Source: JAHJDO01 sp030671985 [NCBI: bacterium]
Lineage (GTDB): Bacteria; JAHJDO01
Length of the DNA: 17,814 bases
NCBI GenBank assembly: GCA_030671985.1
Contig: DAOVHI010000008.1
Location: 1-17,814, forward strand
Reading direction: 5' to 3'
Positions 4,170 to 15,692 of the stretch are shown here, in pieces. The notes under the pieces are model-generated. The model was not told where the DNA came from. It saw only the letters and a list, made by a program, of their open reading frames with translations, and did not search any database. Position 1 is the first letter of the stretch. The number at the start of each line of letters is the position of its first letter. A program made the position numbers and the translations under genes.

Positions 4170-5492
4170 TTAAATCATCCCGGGGAATAGGCCTCTTTTG
4201 CCTACCATCCCCCCTTGTTTCATTAAGTTTTTAATCATTTTTCTTGATGCAACAAAATTTTTCATAAGCATGTTAATGTCTTGAATACTTGTTCCGCTGC
4301 CTTGAGCTATACGCTTCCGTCTTTGCCCGTTAATTATCCCTATGCTTCTTCTCTCCTCTTTTGTCATTGAACTAATAATTGCTTCCTGTTTCTTCATATT
4401 CCCATCATCGATCTTTAAGTTTTTAAATTTGCCATGCATTGGAAGCATTTGTAAAATTTCCTGCATTGATCCAAGCTTTTTCATTTGCTTAAGCTGCTCA
4501 AGGAAATCCTCCAGAGTCAGGGTTTCTTTTCTTATTTTCTTCGCAAGATCCTTTTCTTGCTCAGCCTTATCTTTGAATTCCGCCTTATCAATCAAGCTAA
4601 GAATATCTCCCATTCCAAGTATTCTGGATGCCATTCTATCCGGATAAAACAACTCTAAATTATCAAGCTTCTCACCGTTTCCAATGAATTTCACAGGTTT
4701 GCCTGTAACGGCGCATACGGATATTACTGCGCCTCCTCTAGCATCTCCATCCATTTTTGTAAGAATTACACCATCTATTCCCAAAACGTCCTGATATTCT
4801 CTTGCTATCTTTACCGCATCCTGACCTGTCATGGCATCTACCACCAACAAAACCTCCTGCGCTTTTGTAGCCTTTTTCATATCCACCAGTTCTTTCATTA
4901 AGGTCTGATCAATATGAAGCCTGCCTGCCGTATCAATAATAACAATATCCTTACTATCTCTGGAAGCCAGTTTGACAGAATTAGTTGCGATCTTTACAGC
5001 GTTATTACCCTCTGTAAAAACAGGTACATTCAATTGGCTGCCAAGAACTTCCAGCTGTTTCACTGCAGCGGGTCTGTATATATCCGCTGCTGCTAGAGAA
5101 CACTGATAATTTTGTTTTGTGAAATATTTTACAAGTTTAGCACTTGTTGTTGTTTTTCCACCCCCTTGAAGACCAACCACCATTATAACCGTAGGCTGAG
5201 CTTCTGCCATATTTATACTGCACGCTGATTTTCCAAGCAAACCGATCAGCTCTTCATGCACTACTTTTATAACCTGCTGTCCTGGCTGAAGACTTTTAAG
5301 CACCTGTTGCCCAACCGCCTTTTCACTAATATTTCCAATGAACTCTTTAACAACCTTATAATTAACATCAGCTTCCAGAAGAACAAGTTGTACCTCCCGT
5401 AACGCCGCCTTTATGTTGTCCTCAGTAAGCCTGCCCGGCTTTTTAAGGTTGCGGAATATGTTCTGAAACTTTTCTGATATTACCTCAAACAT
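4170..5492 (-). CDS. ffh: signal recognition particle GTPase Ffh (SRP54)
   Basis: Ffh binds SRP RNA and signal sequences of nascent membrane proteins and delivers them to FtsY by paired GTP hydrolysis. The 440-aa product has the N-domain helix bundle (residues 1-90), a G domain with the P-loop GLQGGGKTTT (107-116), DTAGR (186-190) and TKMDGDARGG (244-253), and a Met-rich M domain (about 295-440) containing the GSMQEILQMLPM stretch. Length is normal. The start is set by GGAGG 8 bases upstream, inside the end of rpe, and the two genes overlap by 8 bases. Placement directly before rpsP is common in bacteria. No 4.5S RNA gene was found in this window. Confidence 0.97.
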   Translation of the reverse strand: MFEVISEKFQNIFRNLKKPGRLTEDNIKAALREVQLVLLEADVNYKVVKEFIGNISEKAVGQQVLKSLQPGQQVIKVVHEELIGLLGKSACSINMAEAQPTVIMVVGLQGGGKTTTSAKLVKYFTKQNYQCSLAAADIYRPAAVKQLEVLGSQLNVPVFTEGNNAVKIATNSVKLASRDSKDIVIIDTAGRLHIDQTLMKELVDMKKATKAQEVLLVVDAMTGQDAVKIAREYQDVLGIDGVILTKMDGDARGGAVISVCAVTGKPVKFIGNGEKLDNLELFYPDRMASRILGMGDILSLIDKAEFKDKAEQEKDLAKKIRKETLTLEDFLEQLKQMKKLGSMQEILQMLPMHGKFKNLKIDDGNMKKQEAIISSMTKEERRSIGIINGQRRKRIAQGSGTSIQDINMLMKNFVASRKMIKNLMKQGGMVGKRGLFPGMI

Positions 5493-6147
5493 TTACACTG
5501 CCTCCGATGCGTAACATTTCAATTGCCTCTTTTATATCGGGCGCTTCAAAAACGGCTGTTCCTGCAACTAGTATGTTAGCACCTGCTTTTACAACATCCG
5601 CTGCTGTGGCTGTGTCTATACCGCCGTCTACCTCTATATCAACAGATAAATCCGCTTCATCCACCATTTGTTTAAGCTCTTTTATCTTTGGCAGAACGGA
5701 TCTGATGAATTTCTGTCCTCCGAATCCCGGATTAACAGTCATAAGCAAAACCATATCAACCTGTTTTAGAACATGTTCTACTCGCGCAATAGGAGTAGAA
5801 GGGTTAAGCGAAACTCCGACCGTCTTGGAAAATTTTCGTATATGCTCAAGCGTCTTATGCAGATGCTCGCATGCCTCGACATGTACAGTTATAATATCTG
5901 CGCCTGCTTCTGCAAAAGCATCTATGTATTTGTCCGGATTTTCAATCATCAAATGCACGTCAAGCGGAATGTTGAGCTTGCTTTTTATTGATTTTACCAC
6001 TACCGGCCCTATTGTTATATTAGGAACAAAATGTCCGTCCATAACATCAATATGTATAAGATCCGCTCCTGCTTGTTCAGCTCTATACACCTCTTGCTCA
6101 AGCCTTGAAAAGTCCGCAGAAAGGATTGAAGGCGCTATCTTTATCAT
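5485..6147 (-). CDS. rpe: ribulose-phosphate 3-epimerase
   Basis: Rpe interconverts D-ribulose 5-phosphate and D-xylulose 5-phosphate in the pentose phosphate pathway. The 220-aa TIM barrel starts IKIAPSILSADF and has IHIDVMDGHFVPNITIG (metal ligand H32 and catalytic D34), LDVHLM (H65), MTVNPGFGGQKF (136-147) and IEVDGGID (catalytic D174), with the phosphate-binding GANILVAGTAVF near the C-terminus. Length is typical. It is the first gene of the minus-strand operon. A GGGAG-type ribosome binding site lies shortly upstream of the ATG. Confidence 0.97.
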   Translation of the reverse strand: MIKIAPSILSADFSRLEQEVYRAEQAGADLIHIDVMDGHFVPNITIGPVVVKSIKSKLNIPLDVHLMIENPDKYIDAFAEAGADIITVHVEACEHLHKTLEHIRKFSKTVGVSLNPSTPIARVEHVLKQVDMVLLMTVNPGFGGQKFIRSVLPKIKELKQMVDEADLSVDIEVDGGIDTATAADVVKAGANILVAGTAVFEAPDIKEAIEMLRIGGSVNV

Positions 6148-6200: not shown

Positions 6201-6229
6201 CTTTTAGCACATTTTGGTTTATGTTTCAA
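6201..6229 (-). promoter_or_regulatory. possible promoter for the rpe-ffh-rpsP-trmD-rplS-rnhB operon
   Basis: On the minus strand TTGAAA (6224-6229) and TAAAAG (6201-6206) are separated by 17 bases. The -10 is a weak match, but position and spacing fit, and the palindrome at 6178-6195 would overlap the expected transcription start. Confidence 0.4.
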
Positions 6230-6251
6230 GATGCGTTTTTATGATTTCCCC

Positions 6252-6281: not shown

Positions 6282-6309
6282 ATCGCTAAAGATTAAGGAA
6301 TTCCCCATC

Positions 6310-7566
6310 ATGAATGAACATCGGGTTGTTATCACAGGCTTGGGCGCTGTAACACCGATTGGTATAGGCGTAAAGGATTTTTGTGAAGGATTAAAAGCCG
6401 GACGGAATGGAACTGCGAAAGTTACTCATTTTGATGTAACGGATTTTCGTTCTAAGCTCGCAGCTGAGGTAAAAGATTTTCAAGCCGAGGAATGGATTGA
6501 CAAGAAATCCGCAAAACGCATGGATCGATTCACTCAATTTGGAATTGCAGCATCTGCAATGGCAATTAAAGATGCAGAATTGGAATCTTTCTCATTTGAC
6601 AAAAATAGGGCAGGTGTCATCATTGGATCAGGCATTGGTGGTTCACAAACAATCGAAGAAGGGTATTCCAAGCTTCAAGAAAACGGACCAAGAAATTTAA
6701 ATCCGTTTCTTGTGTCCAAATTGCTCATTAACATGGCGGCGTGTATGGTTTCTATTAAATACGGCTTGAAAGGTCCACTTTCTGCTCTCTCTGTGGCCTG
6801 TTCTACCGGATCAAACGCCATTGGCGATGCCTTTCGGATTCTTCAGAGAGGAGATGCTGACATTATGCTTGCAGGTAGTTCAGAAGCATGTATAACCCCG
6901 CTTCCTTATGGATGTTTTTGCGCCACACGATCTATGACTCCAAATAATTGCGCAGAAAACGCCTCTAGACCATTTGATAAAAATCGTGATGGTTTTGTGA
7001 TGGGAGAAGGAGCAGGGATTGTTGTTTTGGAAAATCTGGAACACGCTTTAAATCGAGGGGCTAAAATTTATGCTGAAATCGCTGGATACGGCAATACGGC
7101 CGATGCCTATCATTTTACGGCGCCGGAACCAGAGGGCGATGGCATGATCCGGGTTATGCGGGCAGCGCTGCAAGACGCTGATATGGATGCTGCAAGAATA
7201 GGATATATTAATGCGCATGGCACATCCACTGTTTTAAATGACAAAAGCGAGAGCGTGGCTATTAAAAAAGCATTTGGCAAACATGCAAAAACCCTAAAGG
7301 TCAGTTCAATAAAATCAATGATTGGTCATCTTATGGCAGCCGCAGGGTCTGTGGAGTTCGTTTCGACTGTAATGAGTGTGTTTACCGGAATGATCCCGCC
7401 GACCATTAATCACAAAGAGCCTGATGCCGATTGTCATCTTGACTATGTTATCAATGGCGCCGAATCGCTGGATTTAAACGCGGCAATGAGTAATTCGTTT
7501 GGTTTCGGCGGAGGTAACGCCTGCCTTATAATTAAGAAATATGGAGATATAAATGAAAATTCCTAA
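6310..7566 (+). CDS. fabF: beta-ketoacyl-ACP synthase II (FabF/KAS II)
   Basis: FabF condenses malonyl-ACP with acyl-ACP in fatty-acid elongation. The 418-aa thiolase-fold protein starts with RVVITGLGAVTPIGIGV and has the full catalytic set: nucleophile C164 in SVACSTGSNA, H303 in NAHGTST, K335 and H340 in SIKSMIGHLMAAAGS, and the glycine-rich NSFGFGGGNA near the C-terminus. These positions match the E. coli enzyme almost exactly. AAGGA lies 10 bases before the ATG. Its 3' end overlaps the next gene by 14 bases, so the two are co-translated. No acyl carrier protein or malonyl transferase gene is nearby, so this fabF may be a second copy or simply detached from the main fab cluster. Confidence 0.95.
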   Translation: MNEHRVVITGLGAVTPIGIGVKDFCEGLKAGRNGTAKVTHFDVTDFRSKLAAEVKDFQAEEWIDKKSAKRMDRFTQFGIAASAMAIKDAELESFSFDKNRAGVIIGSGIGGSQTIEEGYSKLQENGPRNLNPFLVSKLLINMAACMVSIKYGLKGPLSALSVACSTGSNAIGDAFRILQRGDADIMLAGSSEACITPLPYGCFCATRSMTPNNCAENASRPFDKNRDGFVMGEGAGIVVLENLEHALNRGAKIYAEIAGYGNTADAYHFTAPEPEGDGMIRVMRAALQDADMDAARIGYINAHGTSTVLNDKSESVAIKKAFGKHAKTLKVSSIKSMIGHLMAAAGSVEFVSTVMSVFTGMIPPTINHKEPDADCHLDYVINGAESLDLNAAMSNSFGFGGGNACLIIKKYGDINENS

Positions 7567-8620
7567 ACTTCAGATCGGAAATTTATCCGCAAATATACCT
7601 ATTGTTCAAGGAGGCATGGGTGTCAGAGTTTCTCTTGCTTCGCTGGCTTCAGCCGTAGCAAACGAAGGAGGCATTGGTACGATATCAAGCATTGGTCTCG
7701 GAGATCTCGAAGCTTCTAAGCAAGAATATGAAAGAATATCCAGAGAAGCATTAGCAAATGAGATTCGCAAGGCTAGGAGCATGACAGACGGTCACCTCGC
7801 AGTAAACTTTATGGGTGTGCTCAGCAACGTAAATGATCTTATTAAAGTCTCAGTACAAGAAGGAATTAAAATAATCGTATTCGGCGCCGGATTGCCAACT
7901 AAACTTCCCGCTTTGGTCGAGGATCCCAGTGTAAACCTTGTGCCTATTATCGGTTCTGCCAGAGTTGCAGAATTTATCCTGCGAACATGGGACAAACGAT
8001 ATGGAAGAACCGTCGACGGACTGATCCTTGAAGGACCATTGGCAGGGGGACATCTCGGTTTTTCAGTAGAACAGTTAGAACGTCCGGAGGAATATTCTCT
8101 CGAAAAGCTTCTGCCTGAAATCCTGGAAGCGATTAAACCGTATGAAGATAAATACGGAAAGAAAATTCCCATTATTACCGGAGGCGGTATTTATAATGGA
8201 AAAGATATTGCGCGAATGCTTTCTCTAGGCGCTTCAGGAGTTCAGATGGGAACTCGTTTTGTCTGTACCGAAGAATGCAATGTGTCCCGGCAATTCAAGC
8301 AAGCTTATCTGAAGGTCAAAAAAGAGGACATTGTTATTATTAAAAGTCCTGTCGGCATGCCCGGACGAGCAATAAATAATCGCTTTTTAAAGGATTTGAA
8401 AATTAAAGGAAAGCTGAAAATAAATTGTCCTTACAGATGCCTCACGGCCTGCAAAGTTAAAACTGCAAGATATTGTATTGCGCAGGCTCTTGTAAATTCC
8501 TATTTTGGCGATGTGGATCACGGCCTCATTTTCTGCGGACAGAATGCGTATCGCATCAGTAAAATTACTACAGTTAAAGAACTTATCCAAGAACTTCTAT
8601 CCGGACTCAAAGAAGCATAA
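7553..8620 (+). CDS. FMN-dependent oxidoreductase of the nitronate monooxygenase / FabK family
   Basis: The 355-aa product is a TIM-barrel flavoprotein: IPIVQGGMGVRVSLASLASA at the N-terminus, EGPLAGGHLGF with the family's His (H167), IITGGGIYNGKDI and ASGVQMGTRFVCTEEC (phosphate-binding region). Members either oxidise nitronates or, as FabK, reduce enoyl-ACP. Direct overlap with fabF favours a role in fatty-acid synthesis or modification, but sequence alone does not settle it. The C-terminal extension has clustered cysteines (C292, C296, C300, C308) and then an FCGQNAYRI stretch, which I recall from some nitronate-monooxygenase-annotated proteins of anaerobes; it could bind metal or an Fe-S cluster. 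The ATG at 7553 is preceded by GGAG. Confidence 0.85.
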   Translation: MKIPKLQIGNLSANIPIVQGGMGVRVSLASLASAVANEGGIGTISSIGLGDLEASKQEYERISREALANEIRKARSMTDGHLAVNFMGVLSNVNDLIKVSVQEGIKIIVFGAGLPTKLPALVEDPSVNLVPIIGSARVAEFILRTWDKRYGRTVDGLILEGPLAGGHLGFSVEQLERPEEYSLEKLLPEILEAIKPYEDKYGKKIPIITGGGIYNGKDIARMLSLGASGVQMGTRFVCTEECNVSRQFKQAYLKVKKEDIVIIKSPVGMPGRAINNRFLKDLKIKGKLKINCPYRCLTACKVKTARYCIAQALVNSYFGDVDHGLIFCGQNAYRISKITTVKELIQELLSGLKEA

Positions 8621-8877
8621 GAAATATTTATGTTTTATATTTCAAGAAATGAAAGTGTTAATGCGTTTTTTATTGAGGTTTTAAGCAATTTTACGTATAG
8701 TAGCACTAAATTAACAATAAACATTCAATGATTAATGTTAGGCGTTTATCAAATAACCCCGAAAGGGAGTAAATTTGAGGCAAATTTTGATTGGTGTTTT
8801 AAAAGTTTGTCCACGATTACGAAAATCAAAGCAGATCACAAATACAGTAATATTCAGATTTTTTCAAAGGTAAAAAA
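8621..8877. other. intergenic region upstream of the methylase gene
   Basis: This 257-base gap holds a promoter-like element at 8673-8701, a short inverted repeat (AACATT/AATGTT, arms 8720-8725 and 8734-8739), a tiny CCC-cgaaa-GGG hairpin near 8758-8767, and a weaker TTGAGG-N17-TTTAAA pair at 8775-8803. No small gene or terminator was recognised. Confidence 0.5.
8673..8701 (+). promoter_or_regulatory. sigma70-like promoter upstream of the methylase module
   Basis: TTGAGG (8673-8678), a 17-base spacer and TATAGT (8696-8701). The context closely resembles the fabF promoter (shared TTTCAAG, ATGCGTTTTT, TTTTA..CGTATAGTA and CTAAA blocks). It would give a leader of about 170 bases before the methylase. 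Confidence 0.5.
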
Positions 8878-11800
8878 ATGGATGTATTAGAAAAATTATA
8901 TTCAGATCTGGATTTTAAAAACGGTGAGTTGTTTTCGTCTGCCGATACTCCGAATTTTTGTCATAAAGATGTATGGCTGGAAAAAGGGGAGTGGCTCTCT
9001 GCAGCGAAACGAGCTGGCGCTGAAAAAGTCTTTTTTATTGAGAATAATCCAATTGCCGTTTTTGCAAAGTGTGGAGAAAGTGATGTGGAAAGGCACAAGG
9101 CATTCAATCGTATTTGGAGCCTTGCACGCCCCCGGCTACTGTTTTTAGCTTCGCATGGTGAAATAGCTATCTATGACCTGGCTCAAAAGCCGTTTGATTT
9201 TTCAGAAAAAAAAAGTAAAAATCGAAATAAACTTGAAACGCTGATTACACTACAGAACATAGAAAAAGCTGCTCAAAAATTACAGGACTTTCACCGCAAC
9301 AACATTGAATCGGGAAAGATTTTTGAGAAAGGTCGTTTTGGTGACCTGAAAAATCGAGCAGATAAGTCTCTGATACGAGACTTGAAAACTGTTCGCCGTG
9401 AATTAATTCAGACCGGTTTATCTGGTAAAAAAGTAAAGTACGCTCATGCACTGATTGGCCGTTCTATTTTTATCCGTTATTTGGAAGACCGTCAAATTTT
9501 GACGGAAGAATATTTTCGTAACGTGGCACGAAAGACAGCCGGGTGGACAGACATTCTGAAGAATGGATCAGAACACACCGCATTTGACTTTTCGAAAAAT
9601 AATCCTTTCTACCCGCGTGTTCTGGGAAATAAGGATTTTACTTACGCATTGTTCAGATCATTGGCTCGCGATTTTAACGGCGATATGTTTCCTGATGTGG
9701 ATGCAGAAGAAGCAACGGTAGAGCAGCCTCATTTGAATCGCGTTCAAGAACTCTTTTACGGCAATGCCGGTATTCAAAAAAAACTATTTTTCTATTCTTA
9801 CCGTTTTGACATTGTACCGCTTGATATTATCAGTTCAATTTATGAGGAGTTTTATCATCCTGCAACCATTGATGAGGAAAAGAAAAATAAAGTCCGTCAG
9901 GACGGGGCGTATTATACTCCGCCTGTTTTGGCGGAATTTGTTCTTTCCAGAACATTGACCTCTGAAGTCTTAAAAAAAGCTCCTCGCGTACTTGATCCTG
10001 CCTGTGGTTCAGGGATTTTTCTTGTTGAAGCATTCCGTCGAATAGTTCGCTATAAACAATATGAAAAAGATACTCCTTTGTCATTCAATGAATTGAAAGA
10101 TATTCTGCAAAAACAGATAGCTGGGATTGAAGTCAACAAAGAAGCAGCTGGGATTGCCGCATTTAGCTTGTATCTCTCCATGTTGCATTATCTTGATCCT
10201 CCTTCGATTAACGAGCAGATAAAACAGGGCAATAAGCTTCCTAATTTGATTGCGTCAAACAACCGTTCTAAACATCATTATCATTGTATATGGGTCGGTA
10301 ATACGTTTAACGTGAAAGACATTGAGAGTAATCCGTTGTGGATGAAACGTTTTGGTACTCAATGTGCCGATGTGATTGTCGGAAATCCACCGTGGGGCGC
10401 ACTGGGGAAAAAGTCAGATGAAGTAACCAAAATTCGGGAACGGGTTATGCTTGAATGGTGTCATAAAAATGATAAACCAATTGGAGATAATGAAAAGTCC
10501 CAAGCTTTTCTCTGGCGAGCGCTTGACTTTCTCAAAGATGGCGGAAGAGCGGGAATGCTTGTATCAGCAGGGATCTTATTTAAGCATGGCTCAACGACTC
10601 AGACTTTTCGTGAGCAGTGGATGAATAGCGTGCGCCTGAAGGAAGTTTTTAACTTTACGCATGTAAGGAAATTTTTTTTCAAAGGAGGAGTATCTCCATT
10701 TTTATCTGTCTGCTTTATAAAAGGAAGGCAAAAAGATTTTCCTGTAACTTACTGGTCTGCAAAACAGGTGATTGCTTTGGTAAAAACGCAGTCTGTGATT
10801 CTGTCAAAGTATGATGCCCATATTCTGCGAAATGAAAATCTAACCTCTAGTAAGTTGTGGAAAAGTTATTGGTTTGGTCGACATAGTGACTGGTTATTTA
10901 TTCAAACAATCAGTCGTTGGAAGCGCTTGCTTTCTGTTGTTGACAAGAAGACTTCTGCTCGCGGCTTTCAAGAAGGCAATCGATTAAAAAAATCAGACTG
11001 GCTTCTTAAATACAGAGAACTTCCTGTAACTGAATTCGAAAAATATTCCATTATTGATGATGATATGCTTATTGATCCTCCTAATCGGGTAGAATCACGT
11101 GGAAAGAATGAAGAAATATATTCAGGAAGTCGAATTTTAATTAAGCGAGGAATTCAGCAAAAGCAGGAACCCAAAGGACAAATAATTTCAAATTTTATTG
11201 AAGAGAAGTTTTGTTTTAGAAATTCCATTCACTGTATAAAACTTTCAAATAAGAACAAAAATAATTATTTGCTTCTACAAGGAATATTATGGTCATCTTT
11301 TGCAAGGTTTTTCTTTTTTTTCACCTCTTCCAATTGGGGTTTATGGCATTATGAGATTCATCTGGAAGAAATATTTAATTTTCCGGTTGGTAATTTATTT
11401 GAAAAGAGTAATAAAATGGCTAATAAAGTCATTGCTATCGTTGATAAACTCCGCAACTATCATCCTCAAAAACAGGATATTCTAAATCTTGACGGTGTAC
11501 CCGAAAAGAAGATTGAAGCAAAACGCAGGAAATGGGAAATAGAATTGGATGAGGCAGTCTTTGAACTTTACGGATTAAATGAAGAACAAAAAGATTTGAT
11601 CCACGATTGCTGTGAAGTTATACTACCATTTTTCTACCAGCCGTTTGACGGCATCGGCGCTATGCCTGCGGTAGTCGGCAATGATCGGTTTTGGATTGAA
11701 ACTTATATAAAGATTTTTTCCAGACGCTGGAACGCTTATCTTGGGAATGATGAAGAAATACGTGCGAAAGTTCATGTGGGCGCACATGGCAATATGCTGG

Positions 11801-12075
11801 CAGTCGAGTTTTTTCCGGCAGACAAAGGAGATAGTTGGAATCTAAAACCAAAAAATGATTCATGGAGATATATTCTGGAACAAATTGGTAAAGCATTACC
11901 ACAGCCCATGGGAATTTCTCAGATATTATTGGACGGTTTAGTTTATGTTATTTCAGACGATAAAATTATTATTATCAAGCGCAATACAAAACGTTTTTGG
12001 ACTCGCAGTCTTGCGCGGGAAGACGCTAACGCGACGTTGTGTAAAGCAATGCAGAAAGATGGGAGAGATTCGTAG
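8878..12075 (+). CDS. Eco57I/type IIG-like N6-adenine DNA methyltransferase of a restriction-modification module
   Basis: This 1065-aa protein is built around an N6-adenine DNA methylase. GAYYTPP (343-349) precedes motif I, VLDPACGSGIF (371-381). Motif II is GIEVN (416-420, acidic E418) and motif IV is the catalytic GNPPWG (502-507). Residues 1-140 form a separate N-terminal domain of the type found on large Eco57I-like methylases. About 150-330 is helical (KNRADKSLIRDLKTVRREL, then YAHALIGRSIFIRYLEDRQ). About 600-880 should hold the target recognition domain. VFELYGLNEEQ near 893 closes the methylase part, and about 930-1065 is an extra domain I cannot assign. No clear nuclease triad is visible in the N-terminus. 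AAAGG precedes the ATG by 7 bases. The gene overlaps the next by one base (TAGTG), arguing that the two act together. GC and position between housekeeping blocks suggest an acquired defence module. Confidence 0.85.
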   Translation: MDVLEKLYSDLDFKNGELFSSADTPNFCHKDVWLEKGEWLSAAKRAGAEKVFFIENNPIAVFAKCGESDVERHKAFNRIWSLARPRLLFLASHGEIAIYDLAQKPFDFSEKKSKNRNKLETLITLQNIEKAAQKLQDFHRNNIESGKIFEKGRFGDLKNRADKSLIRDLKTVRRELIQTGLSGKKVKYAHALIGRSIFIRYLEDRQILTEEYFRNVARKTAGWTDILKNGSEHTAFDFSKNNPFYPRVLGNKDFTYALFRSLARDFNGDMFPDVDAEEATVEQPHLNRVQELFYGNAGIQKKLFFYSYRFDIVPLDIISSIYEEFYHPATIDEEKKNKVRQDGAYYTPPVLAEFVLSRTLTSEVLKKAPRVLDPACGSGIFLVEAFRRIVRYKQYEKDTPLSFNELKDILQKQIAGIEVNKEAAGIAAFSLYLSMLHYLDPPSINEQIKQGNKLPNLIASNNRSKHHYHCIWVGNTFNVKDIESNPLWMKRFGTQCADVIVGNPPWGALGKKSDEVTKIRERVMLEWCHKNDKPIGDNEKSQAFLWRALDFLKDGGRAGMLVSAGILFKHGSTTQTFREQWMNSVRLKEVFNFTHVRKFFFKGGVSPFLSVCFIKGRQKDFPVTYWSAKQVIALVKTQSVILSKYDAHILRNENLTSSKLWKSYWFGRHSDWLFIQTISRWKRLLSVVDKKTSARGFQEGNRLKKSDWLLKYRELPVTEFEKYSIIDDDMLIDPPNRVESRGKNEEIYSGSRILIKRGIQQKQEPKGQIISNFIEEKFCFRNSIHCIKLSNKNKNNYLLLQGILWSSFARFFFFFTSSNWGLWHYEIHLEEIFNFPVGNLFEKSNKMANKVIAIVDKLRNYHPQKQDILNLDGVPEKKIEAKRRKWEIELDEAVFELYGLNEEQKDLIHDCCEVILPFFYQPFDGIGAMPAVVGNDRFWIETYIKIFSRRWNAYLGNDEEIRAKVHVGAHGNMLAVEFFPADKGDSWNLKPKNDSWRYILEQIGKALPQPMGISQILLDGLVYVISDDKIIIIKRNTKRFWTRSLAREDANATLCKAMQKDGRDS

Positions 12076-12752
12076 TGGAACGACGCGTTATACCTTCCAT
12101 CTCCGATTTATGGAACCGACATGAAGCACTCTATGTTGATGTTTTTTCAATAGCACTTGCTCTATTGTCAAAAAAAGCATGTCCTTTGAATCATGAAGAC
12201 AAAATTTCAGAACAGCTTTGTCCTATTCTAAACACTGTATGTTTCAATGAAGGGACCAAACGAAATTGTGAAATTCGTACGCCTGATTGGGAAAAACCCA
12301 TTCAGCCTGTGACTAATAATGAACTGAAAGGCAGAAGGGGAAACTGCCCTGATTTTACCTGCAAATGTTATAATCCGTTTGCTTCATACCCCGAAGAACA
12401 TGAAATAGTCTTGCATATTGAATGTAAACGTCTGGGTAACCCAACCAGTAAAAGGTGGAAACTTAATGAGAATTATGTGATCAAGGGAATAAAACGCTTC
12501 GATTGCCCCACACATAAGTATGGCGAATGGGCGTCTTCCGGAATGATGATTGGTTACATCATAAACATGAAACCGGAACAGATCGTTTGTGAGGTAAACA
12601 ACTTTCAGCAAAAACAATTTCCAAATAATTCATCGCTTTCTTTTGATTTTATTAACTCGCCTGTGTTCAGAGGAAAACAAAATCTGAAACGAAAAAATGT
12701 AAATCCCAAATTTTTTCAACTTGTCCATTTATGGGTGGATTTAAGAGTATAA
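12075..12752 (+). CDS. PD-(D/E)XK-like predicted nuclease, partner of the methylase
   Basis: This 225-aa protein starts at a GTG coupled to the methylase stop (TAGTG), with GGGAG 9 bases upstream. The central region has a PD-(D/E)XK pattern: P92-D93 in NCPDFTCK, then a hydrophobic strand HEIVLHIECKRLG with E116-x-K118. After it come NENYVIKGIKRF, THKYGEWASSGMMIGYI and a basic C-terminus. I recall similar ECKRLG proteins beside large adenine methylases, but know of no assigned function. By context it is probably the restriction endonuclease, or a nuclease subunit, of the module. No membrane segment or signal peptide is evident. Nuclease activity is inferred from one motif and from the gene pairing. 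Confidence 0.6.
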   Translation: MERRVIPSISDLWNRHEALYVDVFSIALALLSKKACPLNHEDKISEQLCPILNTVCFNEGTKRNCEIRTPDWEKPIQPVTNNELKGRRGNCPDFTCKCYNPFASYPEEHEIVLHIECKRLGNPTSKRWKLNENYVIKGIKRFDCPTHKYGEWASSGMMIGYIINMKPEQIVCEVNNFQQKQFPNNSSLSFDFINSPVFRGKQNLKRKNVNPKFFQLVHLWVDLRV

Positions 12753-12874: not shown

Positions 12875-12970
12875 CTATCGGAACCTGAACCCATTCTTAG
12901 CAGAGAAACCTCTGGTAAATTCTTCAAAAGATACTTTTCTACTACCCTCAAGCTGTATGTCCTTAATCAA
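12875..12970 (-). pseudogene. fragment of the 3' end of fmt
   Basis: On the minus strand this stretch reads, in frame, LIKDIQLEGSRKVSFEEFTR followed by GFSAKNGFRFR and a TAG stop. It aligns without gaps to the last 30 or so residues of the intact fmt product (LIKEVQLEGGRKVSFEEFTR, then GHPVKKGFRLNSG), with 22 of 30 aligned residues identical. No remainder of fmt precedes it, so it is a truncated copy. Confidence 0.85.
12882..12970. repeat. direct repeat, copy 1 (fmt 3' end)
   Basis: Aligns gap-free with 14752-14840, offset 1870 bases, about 76 of 89 positions identical by hand count. Longest shared runs are CTCTGGTAAATTCTTC and AAAGATACTTTTCTAC. Confidence 0.85.
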
Positions 12971-13002
12971 GTCTAAAATCCGTATTTTTACACAAAAACC
13001 CA

Positions 13003-13031
13003 TTGACACATAATAAATTATTCACTATCTT
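13003..13031 (+). promoter_or_regulatory. sigma70-like promoter for the response regulator
   Basis: Perfect TTGACA (13003-13008), 17-base spacer, TATCTT (13026-13031), 42 bases upstream of the start codon. Confidence 0.7.
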
Positions 13032-13073
13032 GAACACGATGAAGATAACTGTTCAATAAGGAGTGGATAAATT

Positions 13074-13505
13074 ATGAAATTAAGAGCTTTAGTATTTGAA
13101 GATGATGAGAGTATTTGTTTTATGATTGCTTCAATTCTTGAAAAAAGAGGATATGAAGTTTTTAAATTTTCTGAAGTAGGGGGTTGTCCTCTTTTTTTAA
13201 AACAAGATTGTCCTTGCCCGTTAAATTATGTCTGTGCTGATATTATTATTACCGACATTAACATGTCTGGGATAAACGGTCTTAATTTCATTGAAAATCA
13301 ATTAAATCATGGCTGTAAAGCTGAAAATATTGGTGTAATGTCCGGCACTTGGGACGATAATCAAATTAAGCAAGCCAATAAATTAAACACGCATATTTTT
13401 CATAAACCATTTGAACTGGAAAATCTTTTTAGTTGGCTAGAAGCTTGCGAAAGCAAAATAGATCCCGAAAGAAAGTTATCAGACTGGTTCATTAATAATA
13501 AATAA
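13074..13505 (+). CDS. stand-alone CheY-like response regulator with cysteine-rich insert
   Basis: This 143-aa single receiver domain has the acidic pocket E9-D10-D11, phosphoacceptor D61 in IIITDINMSG, the switch serine S90 in VMSG, and the conserved lysine K111 in FHKPF. There is no output domain; the C-terminal 25 residues are a short helix. A Cys-rich insert lies between the first helix and the phosphorylation strand (C38, C46, C48, C54), absent from classical CheY. Related single-domain regulators with this CPL...CPC insert exist to my recollection in other anaerobes. No histidine kinase is present in this window. AAGGAG precedes the ATG by 10 bases and a strong promoter is upstream. Its GC is low (one counted 60-base line is 28%), in contrast to the next gene. 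Confidence 0.88.
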   Translation: MKLRALVFEDDESICFMIASILEKRGYEVFKFSEVGGCPLFLKQDCPCPLNYVCADIIITDINMSGINGLNFIENQLNHGCKAENIGVMSGTWDDNQIKQANKLNTHIFHKPFELENLFSWLEACESKIDPERKLSDWFINNK

Positions 13506-13553
13506 ATTAATGGGATTATCTACCCTTCCCCAATACCTGCGTTCATATTTGAC

Positions 13554-14747
13554 ATGAATAATAAAGACACAATTACACTGAGAATCCAAGACGTGGTCTA
13601 CCGCGGACGTGGTTTGGCGCGGCTGGACGGCATGGTCTACTTTATTGACGGTGTGCTCCCTGATGAACTGGTGCGGGTACGGATCAGAAAGCAAAAAAAG
13701 AACTGTGCCGAGGCTGACATGGTGGAGATTCTGGAGGAATCGTCCCTGCGTATCGTGCCGTCTTGTGAGTTTGCTGAGAAATGTGAGGGATGTTGTTACC
13801 AACATATGGAACATGACGCAGAAATAGAATTCAAGCAGAAACAGCTTGTGAACCTTCTTGAACACATGGGCGGATGTTCTGAAGTGACCTGCAGAGAACC
13901 GATACGATGCCCATCCGCACTCGGATACCGGAACAAGATATCCATGCACGTGAAGAGACGGGGAAATGACAGGACTTTTGGATACTACATGAAGGACAAT
14001 AAGACCGTTCTTGATATCCCGAATTGCCCGTTGGCAATGAGCCCCCTTAACAATCTTCTGACAGAACTTCGAAAGGATTCATCATTCGGATGCGGTACAT
14101 CAGTCAATCTCAGGTACACGGAGCATGATGGCGCAGTGTATTGGACTAATCGCATCGTGCCTTCCAGCGCGAGACTGGTTGAGAAAACACCGCTTGGCAA
14201 TGTCAGCGTTCCAATAAAAAGTTTCTTCCAGACGAACCCACAGGTAACAGATGCGCTTTTCGACAGCTTGTCCGAAATACTAAATCGTACTGAACCTGAG
14301 ACAGTGATAGATATCTACTGTGGAGTGGGCATTTTTGCGTTCACAGCGGCAAAGATCGGAGCAAAAACAGTACTAGGCATCGATACAGACAAGCGCGCGA
14401 TCAATGCGGCAATACGCAACGGACAAACTCTGGATCTTGCTCAAGTGATGTTCCGGCATGGTTACGCAGAAGATCTACTAGAAGAAGCGCTGGACAAATT
14501 TAATATCAAGAACACGGCAGTAATACTTGATCCGCCGCGTGCCGGATTGGTGAAACGGGTAATTGAGATTTTAGGAAGAAAGAAACCTCGTGATATTATT
14601 TATGTGTCATGCGCGGCAGATACGATGGCACGTGATGTGAAGCTTCTGACCAATCATGGCTATCAACTTATAGACACAGGGCTCGTGGACATGTTCCCGC
14701 GCACCGCATATTTCGAATCCATCACACACCTGAGCTCATCATCCTGA
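13554..14747 (+). CDS. rlmD: 23S rRNA (uracil-C5)-methyltransferase, RlmD/RumA type
   Basis: This 397-aa SAM-dependent methyltransferase forms m5U in rRNA. Residues 6-65 are a TRAM RNA-binding domain (IQDVVYRGRGLARLDG). The [4Fe-4S] ligands C71, C77, C80 and C158 have RumA spacing (C-x5-C-x2-C, then NCPL). The catalytic domain has VIDIYCGVGIFAFTAAKIG (SAM site), VILDPPRAGL, and the nucleophilic cysteine in DIIYVSCAADTMARD. The Fe-S cluster separates it from TrmA. RlmD (U1939) versus RlmC (U747) cannot be settled by reading. GC is higher than its neighbours' (counted 60-base lines give 57, 52, 45 and 38%), so transfer is plausible. No ribosome binding site is obvious before the ATG, 48 bases after the response regulator stop. 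Its stop overlaps that of the convergent fmt by 9 bases. Confidence 0.9.
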   Translation: MNNKDTITLRIQDVVYRGRGLARLDGMVYFIDGVLPDELVRVRIRKQKKNCAEADMVEILEESSLRIVPSCEFAEKCEGCCYQHMEHDAEIEFKQKQLVNLLEHMGGCSEVTCREPIRCPSALGYRNKISMHVKRRGNDRTFGYYMKDNKTVLDIPNCPLAMSPLNNLLTELRKDSSFGCGTSVNLRYTEHDGAVYWTNRIVPSSARLVEKTPLGNVSVPIKSFFQTNPQVTDALFDSLSEILNRTEPETVIDIYCGVGIFAFTAAKIGAKTVLGIDTDKRAINAAIRNGQTLDLAQVMFRHGYAEDLLEEALDKFNIKNTAVILDPPRAGLVKRVIEILGRKKPRDIIYVSCAADTMARDVKLLTNHGYQLIDTGLVDMFPRTAYFESITHLSSSS

Positions 14748-15692
14748 GTTTAACCTGAACCCTTTCTTAACGGGGTGACCTCTGGTAAATTCTTCGAAAG
14801 ATACTTTTCTACCGCCCTCAAGCTGTACCTCTTTAATTAATAGTTGTCCCTTGCCTGTGCCTACTAGCCCGCCTTTATTTTTTAACAAATCCAATAAAAC
14901 ACCTGTTTTTTCTTTGCTATATGCGGACTTGTCATAAACTTCTGTTTTAAATATTCTTAATCTCTGTTTCTTGCCGGATATATTTATGAATACATAAACC
15001 CCAGGCCATGGATTCATGGCTCTTGTCATATTATTAATTTCCTCCGCGGATTTTGTCCAATCTATGAGACCGTCGGATTTTTTGAGCATTGAAACATATG
15101 TTGCCTTTGCATGATTTTGAGGAATTCGGGAACAAGTTCCTTCTTCTATCTGTAATATAGCCTCAACTAATAATTCTGCTGACAATTTGCTTAATCTATC
15201 ATGAATGGTTTCCATATTGTCTGAGAAGCTAACGCTTATTTTTTCCTGAAGCAAAATATCGCCGGCATCCATTCTTTTATTCATGAACATTATTGTTACA
15301 CCTGTTTCTTTCTCGCCGTTAAGCAATGCCCCTTGCATTGGGGCAGCGCCCCTATATTTTGGCAACAAAGACGCATGCGCATTTATGCAACCCAAGCGCG
15401 GAATATCCAGAACCTGTTTAGGAAGTATTTTGCCGTAAGCTACAACAACTACGAGATCGGGACTGAGCGCTTGAATGTTCTCAACGAATGCGTCTGTTAT
15501 TGTCTCCGGCTGAAGAATCTTAATGTTATGCTCTTGCGCGCATAATTTCACAGGAGGAGCTATCTCTCCCCTTCCTCTGCCTTTCGGCCTGTCAGGCTGA
15601 GTAACAACGCATATCACATCATGCCCGGCTTGTATAAGCGCTTTGAGACTGAGTAATGCAAAATCTGGTGTTCCCATAAAAACTAGTTTCAA
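14739..15692 (-). CDS. fmt: methionyl-tRNA formyltransferase
   Basis: Fmt transfers a formyl group from 10-formyl-tetrahydrofolate to Met-tRNA(fMet) for translation initiation. The 317-aa product has LVFMGTPDFA at the N-terminus, TQPDRPKGRGR, the hallmark INAHASLLPKYRGAAPMQ (N104, H106) and MDAGDILL (D145), giving the complete catalytic triad. The C-terminal OB-fold tRNA-binding domain (about 205-317) includes WTKSAEEINNMTRAMNPWPG. Length is normal. The usual partner def is not adjacent; the gene follows rmuC by 21 bases. Its last 90 bases are duplicated 1.87 kb away (12882-12970), and its stop overlaps that of rlmD, so this gene end has been a recombination junction. Confidence 0.97.
   Translation of the reverse strand: MKLVFMGTPDFALLSLKALIQAGHDVICVVTQPDRPKGRGRGEIAPPVKLCAQEHNIKILQPETITDAFVENIQALSPDLVVVVAYGKILPKQVLDIPRLGCINAHASLLPKYRGAAPMQGALLNGEKETGVTIMFMNKRMDAGDILLQEKISVSFSDNMETIHDRLSKLSAELLVEAILQIEEGTCSRIPQNHAKATYVSMLKKSDGLIDWTKSAEEINNMTRAMNPWPGVYVFINISGKKQRLRIFKTEVYDKSAYSKEKTGVLLDLLKNKGGLVGTGKGQLLIKEVQLEGGRKVSFEEFTRGHPVKKGFRLNSG
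14752..14840. repeat. direct repeat, copy 2 (within intact fmt)
   Basis: Partner of 12882-12970 in the same orientation. It lies inside the coding end of the complete fmt gene. Confidence 0.85.

Follow-up and report, generated by a model that had tools for sequence, protein, structure and literature searches.

Insertion with long target duplication, reportedly described by Nobusato et al. in 2000 and Furuta et al. in 2010, leaves incoming DNA between two direct copies of its target. The name comes from work in H. pylori (PMC1643837), with further accounts in PMC3031569, PMC3154945 and PMC4978471. Restriction-modification insertions with target duplications of the order of 100 bp are described in PMC3874152, and the 2000 paper is cited in PMC2654758, which concerns toxin-antitoxin systems. 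The present analysis concerns a stretch of 17,814 nucleotides (the window) that makes up contig C122 (DAOVHI010000008.1) of the draft genome G000 (1.25 Mb, 152 contigs; JAHJDO01 sp030671985). In this window, two copies of the 3' end of fmt, the gene for methionyl-tRNA formyltransferase, bracket rlmD, the gene for the 23S rRNA m5U1939 methyltransferase. We read this case as an insertion with long target duplication that carries unusual cargo.

The 3' ends of protein-coding genes, such as icd, which the earlier sequence-only reading had named, serve as insertion sites of integrative elements. SGI1 at trmE is a further case (PMC8409611). In E. coli, integration of a laboratory plasmid produced a duplicated gene end in 56 of 60 clones by PCR. 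These duplications measured 109-950 bp in 14 sequenced clones and were explained by recircularisation followed by a single crossover (PMC3240628). That source also treats homology-facilitated illegitimate recombination, with one homologous junction and another that mostly carries a shared word of 3-10 bp. Gene movement through circles, with repeats at the flanks, has also been modelled for Arabidopsis (PMC2869330).

The fmt locus resembles long target duplications in that the insert lies between direct target copies of the order of 100 bp and that the segment contains no known recombinase. It is recognised through relatives with and without the insert, of which the empty one, G004, is probably a secondary loss; at other sites in the genus the cargo includes restriction genes. 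The usual cargo of such insertions is restriction-modification genes (an association, not a definition), whereas that at fmt is an rRNA methyltransferase gene of housekeeping type. Restriction genes lie outside the bracketed fmt segment (8878-12752) and at the efp site of G003. Unlike the described cases, genus cargo elsewhere includes toxin-antitoxin pairs and an AAA ATPase, and the fmt insertion is old, being common to species that differ by about 15% in their core genes. The part-sampled literature on long target duplication yielded no case with rlmD or toxin-antitoxin cargo, which is not proof of absence.

As in the integration of recircularised DNA, a duplicated gene end of about 100 bp flanks the cargo, but here it measures about 96 bp and the end product alone is seen. 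One homologous junction and another with a possible short shared word (up to 7 nt) recall homology-facilitated illegitimate recombination; there recipient DNA is generally deleted, whereas at fmt it is duplicated. The duplicated 3' end of the target also recalls elements of the SGI1 type. In contrast to these, the locus shows no integrase and no re-use of fmt in 79 loci outside the genus, and the genus also duplicates gene 5' ends.

The duplicated fmt tail and the DNA between its copies

The features of the duplication and its contents are the following.

14739..15692, minus strand: complete fmt (TIGR00460, 312.3 bits against a cut-off of 201.5)
14742..14840, minus strand: fmt 3' end, functional copy of the repeat (85% to the remnant, repeat search)
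13554..14747, plus strand: rlmD (TIGR00479, 257.8 bits against a cut-off of 183.55)
13074..13505, plus strand: single-domain response regulator receiver (PF00072)
12965..13057, plus strand: promoter/leader repeat R1 (TTGACA at 13003-13008, 17 nt, TATCTT at 13026-13031, then TTGAAC...GTTCAA)
12875..12970, minus strand: fmt 3'-end remnant, displaced copy (~31 codons and stop TAG; orthologous remnant in G003, L034:6473-6567)

Positions 12882-12970 and 14752-14840 align without gaps in the same orientation at 85% identity (E 3.1e-23 within G000, with no third copy reported). Refinement extends the homology from about 12875 to 12971 (~96 bp), so that the repeat measures 89-96 nt in the window, compared with 95 nt in G003. 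The remnant corresponds to fmt codons 285-314 at 73% amino-acid identity and has no internal stop. It closes with its own stop codon (CTA at 12875-12877, TAG on the minus strand) and ends in GFRFR, as does the fmt product of G003; the window's own fmt product ends in GFRLNSG. Between the copies lie the response regulator receiver and rlmD, neither of them a recombinase, and no other sizeable gene was seen. The sequence-only reading had described the two direct tails, the remnant with its TAG, the end of complete fmt at 14739 and the lack of an integrase between the copies, and each of these observations was recovered. The repeat marks inserted DNA, and the remnant itself probably does not function as a gene.

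Comparison with relatives shows that the bracketed segment is not one unit. The rlmD gene, whose stop overlaps the convergent fmt stop, has counterparts of 85-87% identity in G002 and G003, and no match was found in G004 (90% complete). Its third-position GC content (GC3) is 0.50-0.55, against 0.27-0.39 for rpe, ffh, fmt and rmuC and 0.23 for the response regulator. The latter has no close match in the four other genus genomes (best E 1.8e-4). As original cargo the response regulator was rejected on account of this lack of close matches and its differing composition, the promoter ahead of it being the shared part. It is probably a later addition in G000; alternatively, it may be ancestral and have been lost in G002 and G003. 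The shared old insert is rlmD with its predicted promoter.

The promoter reading of R1 is a consensus-based prediction, and a promoter scan gave 8 sites against 5.1 in shuffled sequences. Copies resembling R1 precede unrelated open reading frames (ORFs) in G002, G003 and G004, and those of G003 and G004 are 96.5% identical over 115 bp. R1 stands directly before rlmD in G003, whereas in the window the response regulator intervenes. A dispersed repeat of about 75 nt was also observed, at 8667-8740 in the window and at L174:5512-5567 and 8874-8929, with 54 matches in five genomes. Twenty aligned copies are strongly conserved, unstructured and leader-like in the manner of a promoter. By eye, the 3' half (ACTGTTCAAT..ATGTTA) resembles R1 at 12965-13057.

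The locus in related genomes and the age of the insert

Comparison covered G000 and four other genomes of the same genus (G001-G004), and it turns on rpe and the block ahead of it.

5485..6147, minus strand: rpe, which in G004 adjoins fmt
6202..6231, minus strand: conserved block ahead of rpe (CTTGAAAC...TGTGCTAAAA), read as the predicted rpe promoter

The fmt orthologues of G002, G003 and G004 are 82-83% identical. In G004, fmt and rpe are 65 bp apart with nothing between them, the rpe block lies close behind the fmt stop and rlmD has no match; the empty site whose existence the sequence-only reading had left as a question is therefore present in a relative. G002 carries fmt, convergent rlmD and then rpe, with no remnant. 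In G003, fmt and rlmD are followed by the fmt remnant (95 nt), then by a gene of the DUF1284 type and rpe. In G001 (62% complete), unrelated DNA extends upstream of rpe and its block to the contig end, and no fmt orthologue was found. The block matches G002 and G004 at about 97% over 30-31 bp and is kept in all five genomes, while the DNA directly upstream differs in each. The G003 remnant together with the 65 bp beside it aligns with the window for 163 bp at roughly 82% identity; thus, the joint of remnant and promoter is common to both genomes.

A scan for a second fmt tail covered 80 fmt loci, 79 of them outside the genus and some with short flanks. Second fmt matches occurred at 9 of the 80, all of at most 56 nt. 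None of the 79 outside neighbourhoods held a second tail, and within the genus there is one shared event only. In keeping with the sequence-only reading of an insertion, the DNA at this spot differs between relatives.

Silent divergence places G000 outermost in all four genes, with G002 and G003 as the closest pair. The synonymous divergence (dS) of G000 from G002 and G003 is 0.56-0.68 in fmt, ffh and rmuC and 0.42-0.43 in rpe. An outgroup-rooted fmt tree (FastTree) agrees, with support of 0.86 for grouping G004 with G002 and G003; an unrooted five-genome tree was built with IQ-TREE and FastTree. For rlmD, dS between G000 and G003 is 0.566, similar to that of host genes (0.43-0.60), which indicates that the gene has probably been present since the genus ancestor. 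The insertion itself would probably date to that ancestor, as G000 branches first. Judged by the gene trees, the empty site of G004 is probably a secondary loss, best seen as the outcome of recombination between the two repeats, as we would suppose, or of receipt of an empty allele. The G002 rlmD (L033:2664-3863) has a dS of 0.396 to G000 and 0.337 to G003. It is thus nearer G000 and farther from G003 than most host genes, which suggests allele exchange between species.

Origin of the insert

The joint on which the proposed route depends is a short stretch.

12965..12971, strand not assigned: joint of promoter end and remnant (CTTGATT on the fmt strand)

The promoter repeat ends where the outer edge of the remnant lies, and fmt is entered at codon ~284 in both G000 and G003. 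CTTGATT is present in the promoter repeat (contig C32 of G003, contig C77 of G004) and in the fmt gene of G004. In simulated random joints, at least 7 shared nucleotides arise with a chance of 0.0005 and at least 6 with 0.0016.

As the likeliest route we propose, at roughly even odds, that a recircularised DNA fragment entered the chromosome through a single crossover within the fmt tail. The starting order would have been fmt followed by rpe in one direction, as in G004. A DNA fragment comprising the 3' end of fmt, rlmD and the rlmD promoter would have closed to a circle at a short word common to the promoter end and the fmt tail, as the joint suggests. A single homologous crossover inside the ~96-bp tail would then have integrated the circle with no need for an integrase. 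The expected product is fmt with an intact tail, rlmD, its promoter, a spare fmt tail and rpe. This order is seen in G003 and in the window, each with extra DNA before rpe. The response regulator would have entered later between the promoter and rlmD, and restriction genes and the native fabF block between the remnant and the rpe promoter. The remnant would persist as a homology patch that allows clean deletion of the insert, which may explain the empty site of G004. Homologous recombination with a related strain, one of the alternatives in the sequence-only reading, comes nearest to this route. The two tails differ at 12/84 sites within G000 and 13/84 within G003, inside the between-species range of 8-19, and a tail from a foreign donor was set aside on this ground.

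Several observations weigh against the circle route. The whole CTTGATT is missing from fmt of G000, G002 and G003, and about 3 nt at the joint are common to the promoter repeat and the fmt gene of the window; with the 7-nt word found only in G004 fmt, the microhomology depends on the ancestral fmt sequence. The remnant is absent from G002, so that a further deletion must be assumed. Between G000 and G003, the fmt tails differ at 10 sites and the remnants at 17/84, less than silent sites, and the remnant is therefore not freely drifting. Gene conversion by fmt, constraint or later exchange may account for this slow change, and one G000-only base common to its fmt and its remnant hints at gene conversion. 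Among 385 genomes searched for an rlmD donor at E <= 1e-40, 15 matched, three of them from the genus, and none was close; the best match outside the genus (E 9.2e-69) is far weaker than those within it. The mobile unit could be the promoter repeat itself. Lastly, we infer the circle from its product, and break repair with template switching leaves the same structure.

Under such template switching, a broken fork would have copied rlmD from another location and returned to fmt about 96 bp upstream of its exit. Short shared words at two joints and duplications of variable length (57-177 nt) are consistent with this route, which we consider possible yet somewhat doubtful; on its own it gives no account of a joint in G003 between the head of efp and the tail of a pepQ-like gene, head-to-tail across two genes, unless a tandem duplication is added. 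An integrative element that attached at the fmt 3' end, restored the gene with its own copy and later lost its integrase appears unlikely, despite a repeat that sits at a gene 3' end and extends to the stop codon and the foreign-looking composition of rlmD (GC3 0.5). The segment is without a recombinase, no second tail occurs in the 79 other loci, and the two tails show no extra divergence. Moreover, of the seven other genus pairs, with lengths of 57-177 nt, four touch a gene 5' end, two a gene 3' end and one lies inside a gene. For the same reasons, the site-specific integration put forward in the sequence-only reading is not supported.

An old tandem duplication of fmt, with one copy mostly deleted and rlmD caught between, would also leave a partial copy in direct orientation. 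The remnant starts abruptly (codon ~284), the same joint occurs in two species beside a promoter repeat found elsewhere, and no compared genus genome holds two long fmt copies, which makes this history very improbable. An assembly artefact might be suspected in draft genomes, G000 being in 152 contigs, but it can practically be dismissed: two genomes carry the same joint with about 82% identity between them, and a difference of 15% between the copies is unlike that of duplications made in assembly.

Neighbouring genes and similar scars in the genus

On the minus strand, the window carries rnhB, rplS, trmD, rpsP, ffh and rpe, with fmt and rmuC at its right end; the left-hand names and rmuC were assigned from translations, without a family search. 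On the plus strand, the interval from rpe to fmt holds fabF, a gene of the NMO family, a type IIG restriction-methylation gene and an ORF without family matches. These are followed by the fmt remnant (minus strand), the response regulator and rlmD.

8878-12075, plus strand: type IIG restriction-methylation gene (PADLOC REase_MTase_IIG, E 1.9e-53)
12075-12752, plus strand: 225-aa ORF behind the type IIG gene

The restriction gene finds only weak matches in relatives (E 4e-5 or worse). Together with the 225-aa ORF, it forms a separate insertion (8878..12752) between the remnant and rpe. The ORF has no match in Pfam, NCBIfam or PADLOC and is possibly a partner of the restriction gene. The fabF and NMO-family genes (6307-8632) form a native block of the genus that occupies other places in G002, G003 and G004, which implies that the block moved beside rpe in G000. 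RNA families gave 0 matches in the window at gathering scores. In G003, two more ORFs stand between ffh and rpsP (L034:9758-12100), without long flanking repeats.

As comparable scars we counted direct repeats with exactly two copies, 50-250 nt long and of 80% identity or more, whose copies were separated by 0.3-12 kb and did not both fall within a single ORF. The count covered 1,014,339 bases in 70 loci of four genus genomes. The control comprised 79 loci of other bacteria (1,386,799 bases). Nine pairs were found in the genus (G000 1, G002 2, G003 5, G004 1), two of which are the fmt pairs, and two in the control. Both control pairs are about 80% identical, while all nine genus pairs reach at least 85%. 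The seven non-fmt pairs against two in the control give p of about 0.03 conditional on the totals, which is only indicative. Repeats with more than two copies were left out (2 pairs in G000, 7 in G003, 1 in G004 and 11 in the control). A genus-wide pattern is weakened by the make-up of these samples, as the control is mostly Clostridia and the genus loci are non-random, some having been picked for the fmt case or for other repeats, and by G000 itself, in which 164 kb sampled beyond the window held no two-copy pair.

Duplicated gene ends of 71-177 nt flank toxin-antitoxin, restriction and ATPase genes, and two of the sites are uninterrupted in sister genomes. The toxin-antitoxin duplications measure 71, 76 and 75 nt (L226, L253 and L270, respectively), and the other pairs 57, 94, 95, 101 and 177 nt. 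A fixed duplication of ~75 nt as the sign of an unrecognised enzyme was rejected, given the varying lengths of the other pairs and the different layout at efp. In G002, a nucleotidyltransferase-HepT pair lies between copies of the panD start (L253:7465-8611), and no panD orthologue was found in the loci compared. A YefM/YoeB-like pair in G004 lies between copies of a near-start piece of lolA (L270:17732-19047). The lolA gene of G003 (L225:8014-10196) is without this pair and carries its own, different duplicated insert, whose 108-nt pair, among the repeats of more than two copies, looks like a real scar. An AAA_14/DUF4143 ATPase gene occupies the space between 177-nt copies of an amidohydrolase gene start in G003 (L219:8687-11799), a site that is uninterrupted in G002. 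As a side observation, the end of a ComEA-like nuclease gene recurs as a 94-nt copy upstream of fabF in G003 (L174:3644-8280), and the neighbouring 512-aa ORF looks, from its translation, like comM.

In G000, G002 and G004, efp is the direct neighbour of a pepQ-like gene. In G003 (L226:5888-17809), the order is the pepQ-like gene, helicase and type IIG restriction genes, a joint of efp head and pepQ-like tail, a YefM/ParE pair and efp. DNA of the YefM/ParE pair also precedes efp in G001. The G003 joint is formed at the shared word ATGGGG and is of the kind that a circle predicts.

Taken together, the relatives show a foreign-looking housekeeping gene placed between two conserved genes, neither of which was destroyed, with no mobile-element enzyme in sight. 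Tentatively, and with considerable reservation, we suggest that insertion with long target duplication may be a main road in this genus by which recombinase-free cassettes (toxin-antitoxin, restriction, AAA ATPases, rlmD) enter operons, via circles closed at short shared words and one gene-end crossover. If so, essential genes would be regenerated and a short scar would keep every insert removable. The efp-head/pepQ-like-tail joint of G003 would then be the fossil of such a circle and would explain the origin of insertions with long target duplication. Duplicated gene ends are an easy signature for cataloguing insertions in genomes without a recognisable recombinase. The joints, should they prove to be circle junctions, would be relevant to how insertion with long target duplication proceeds.

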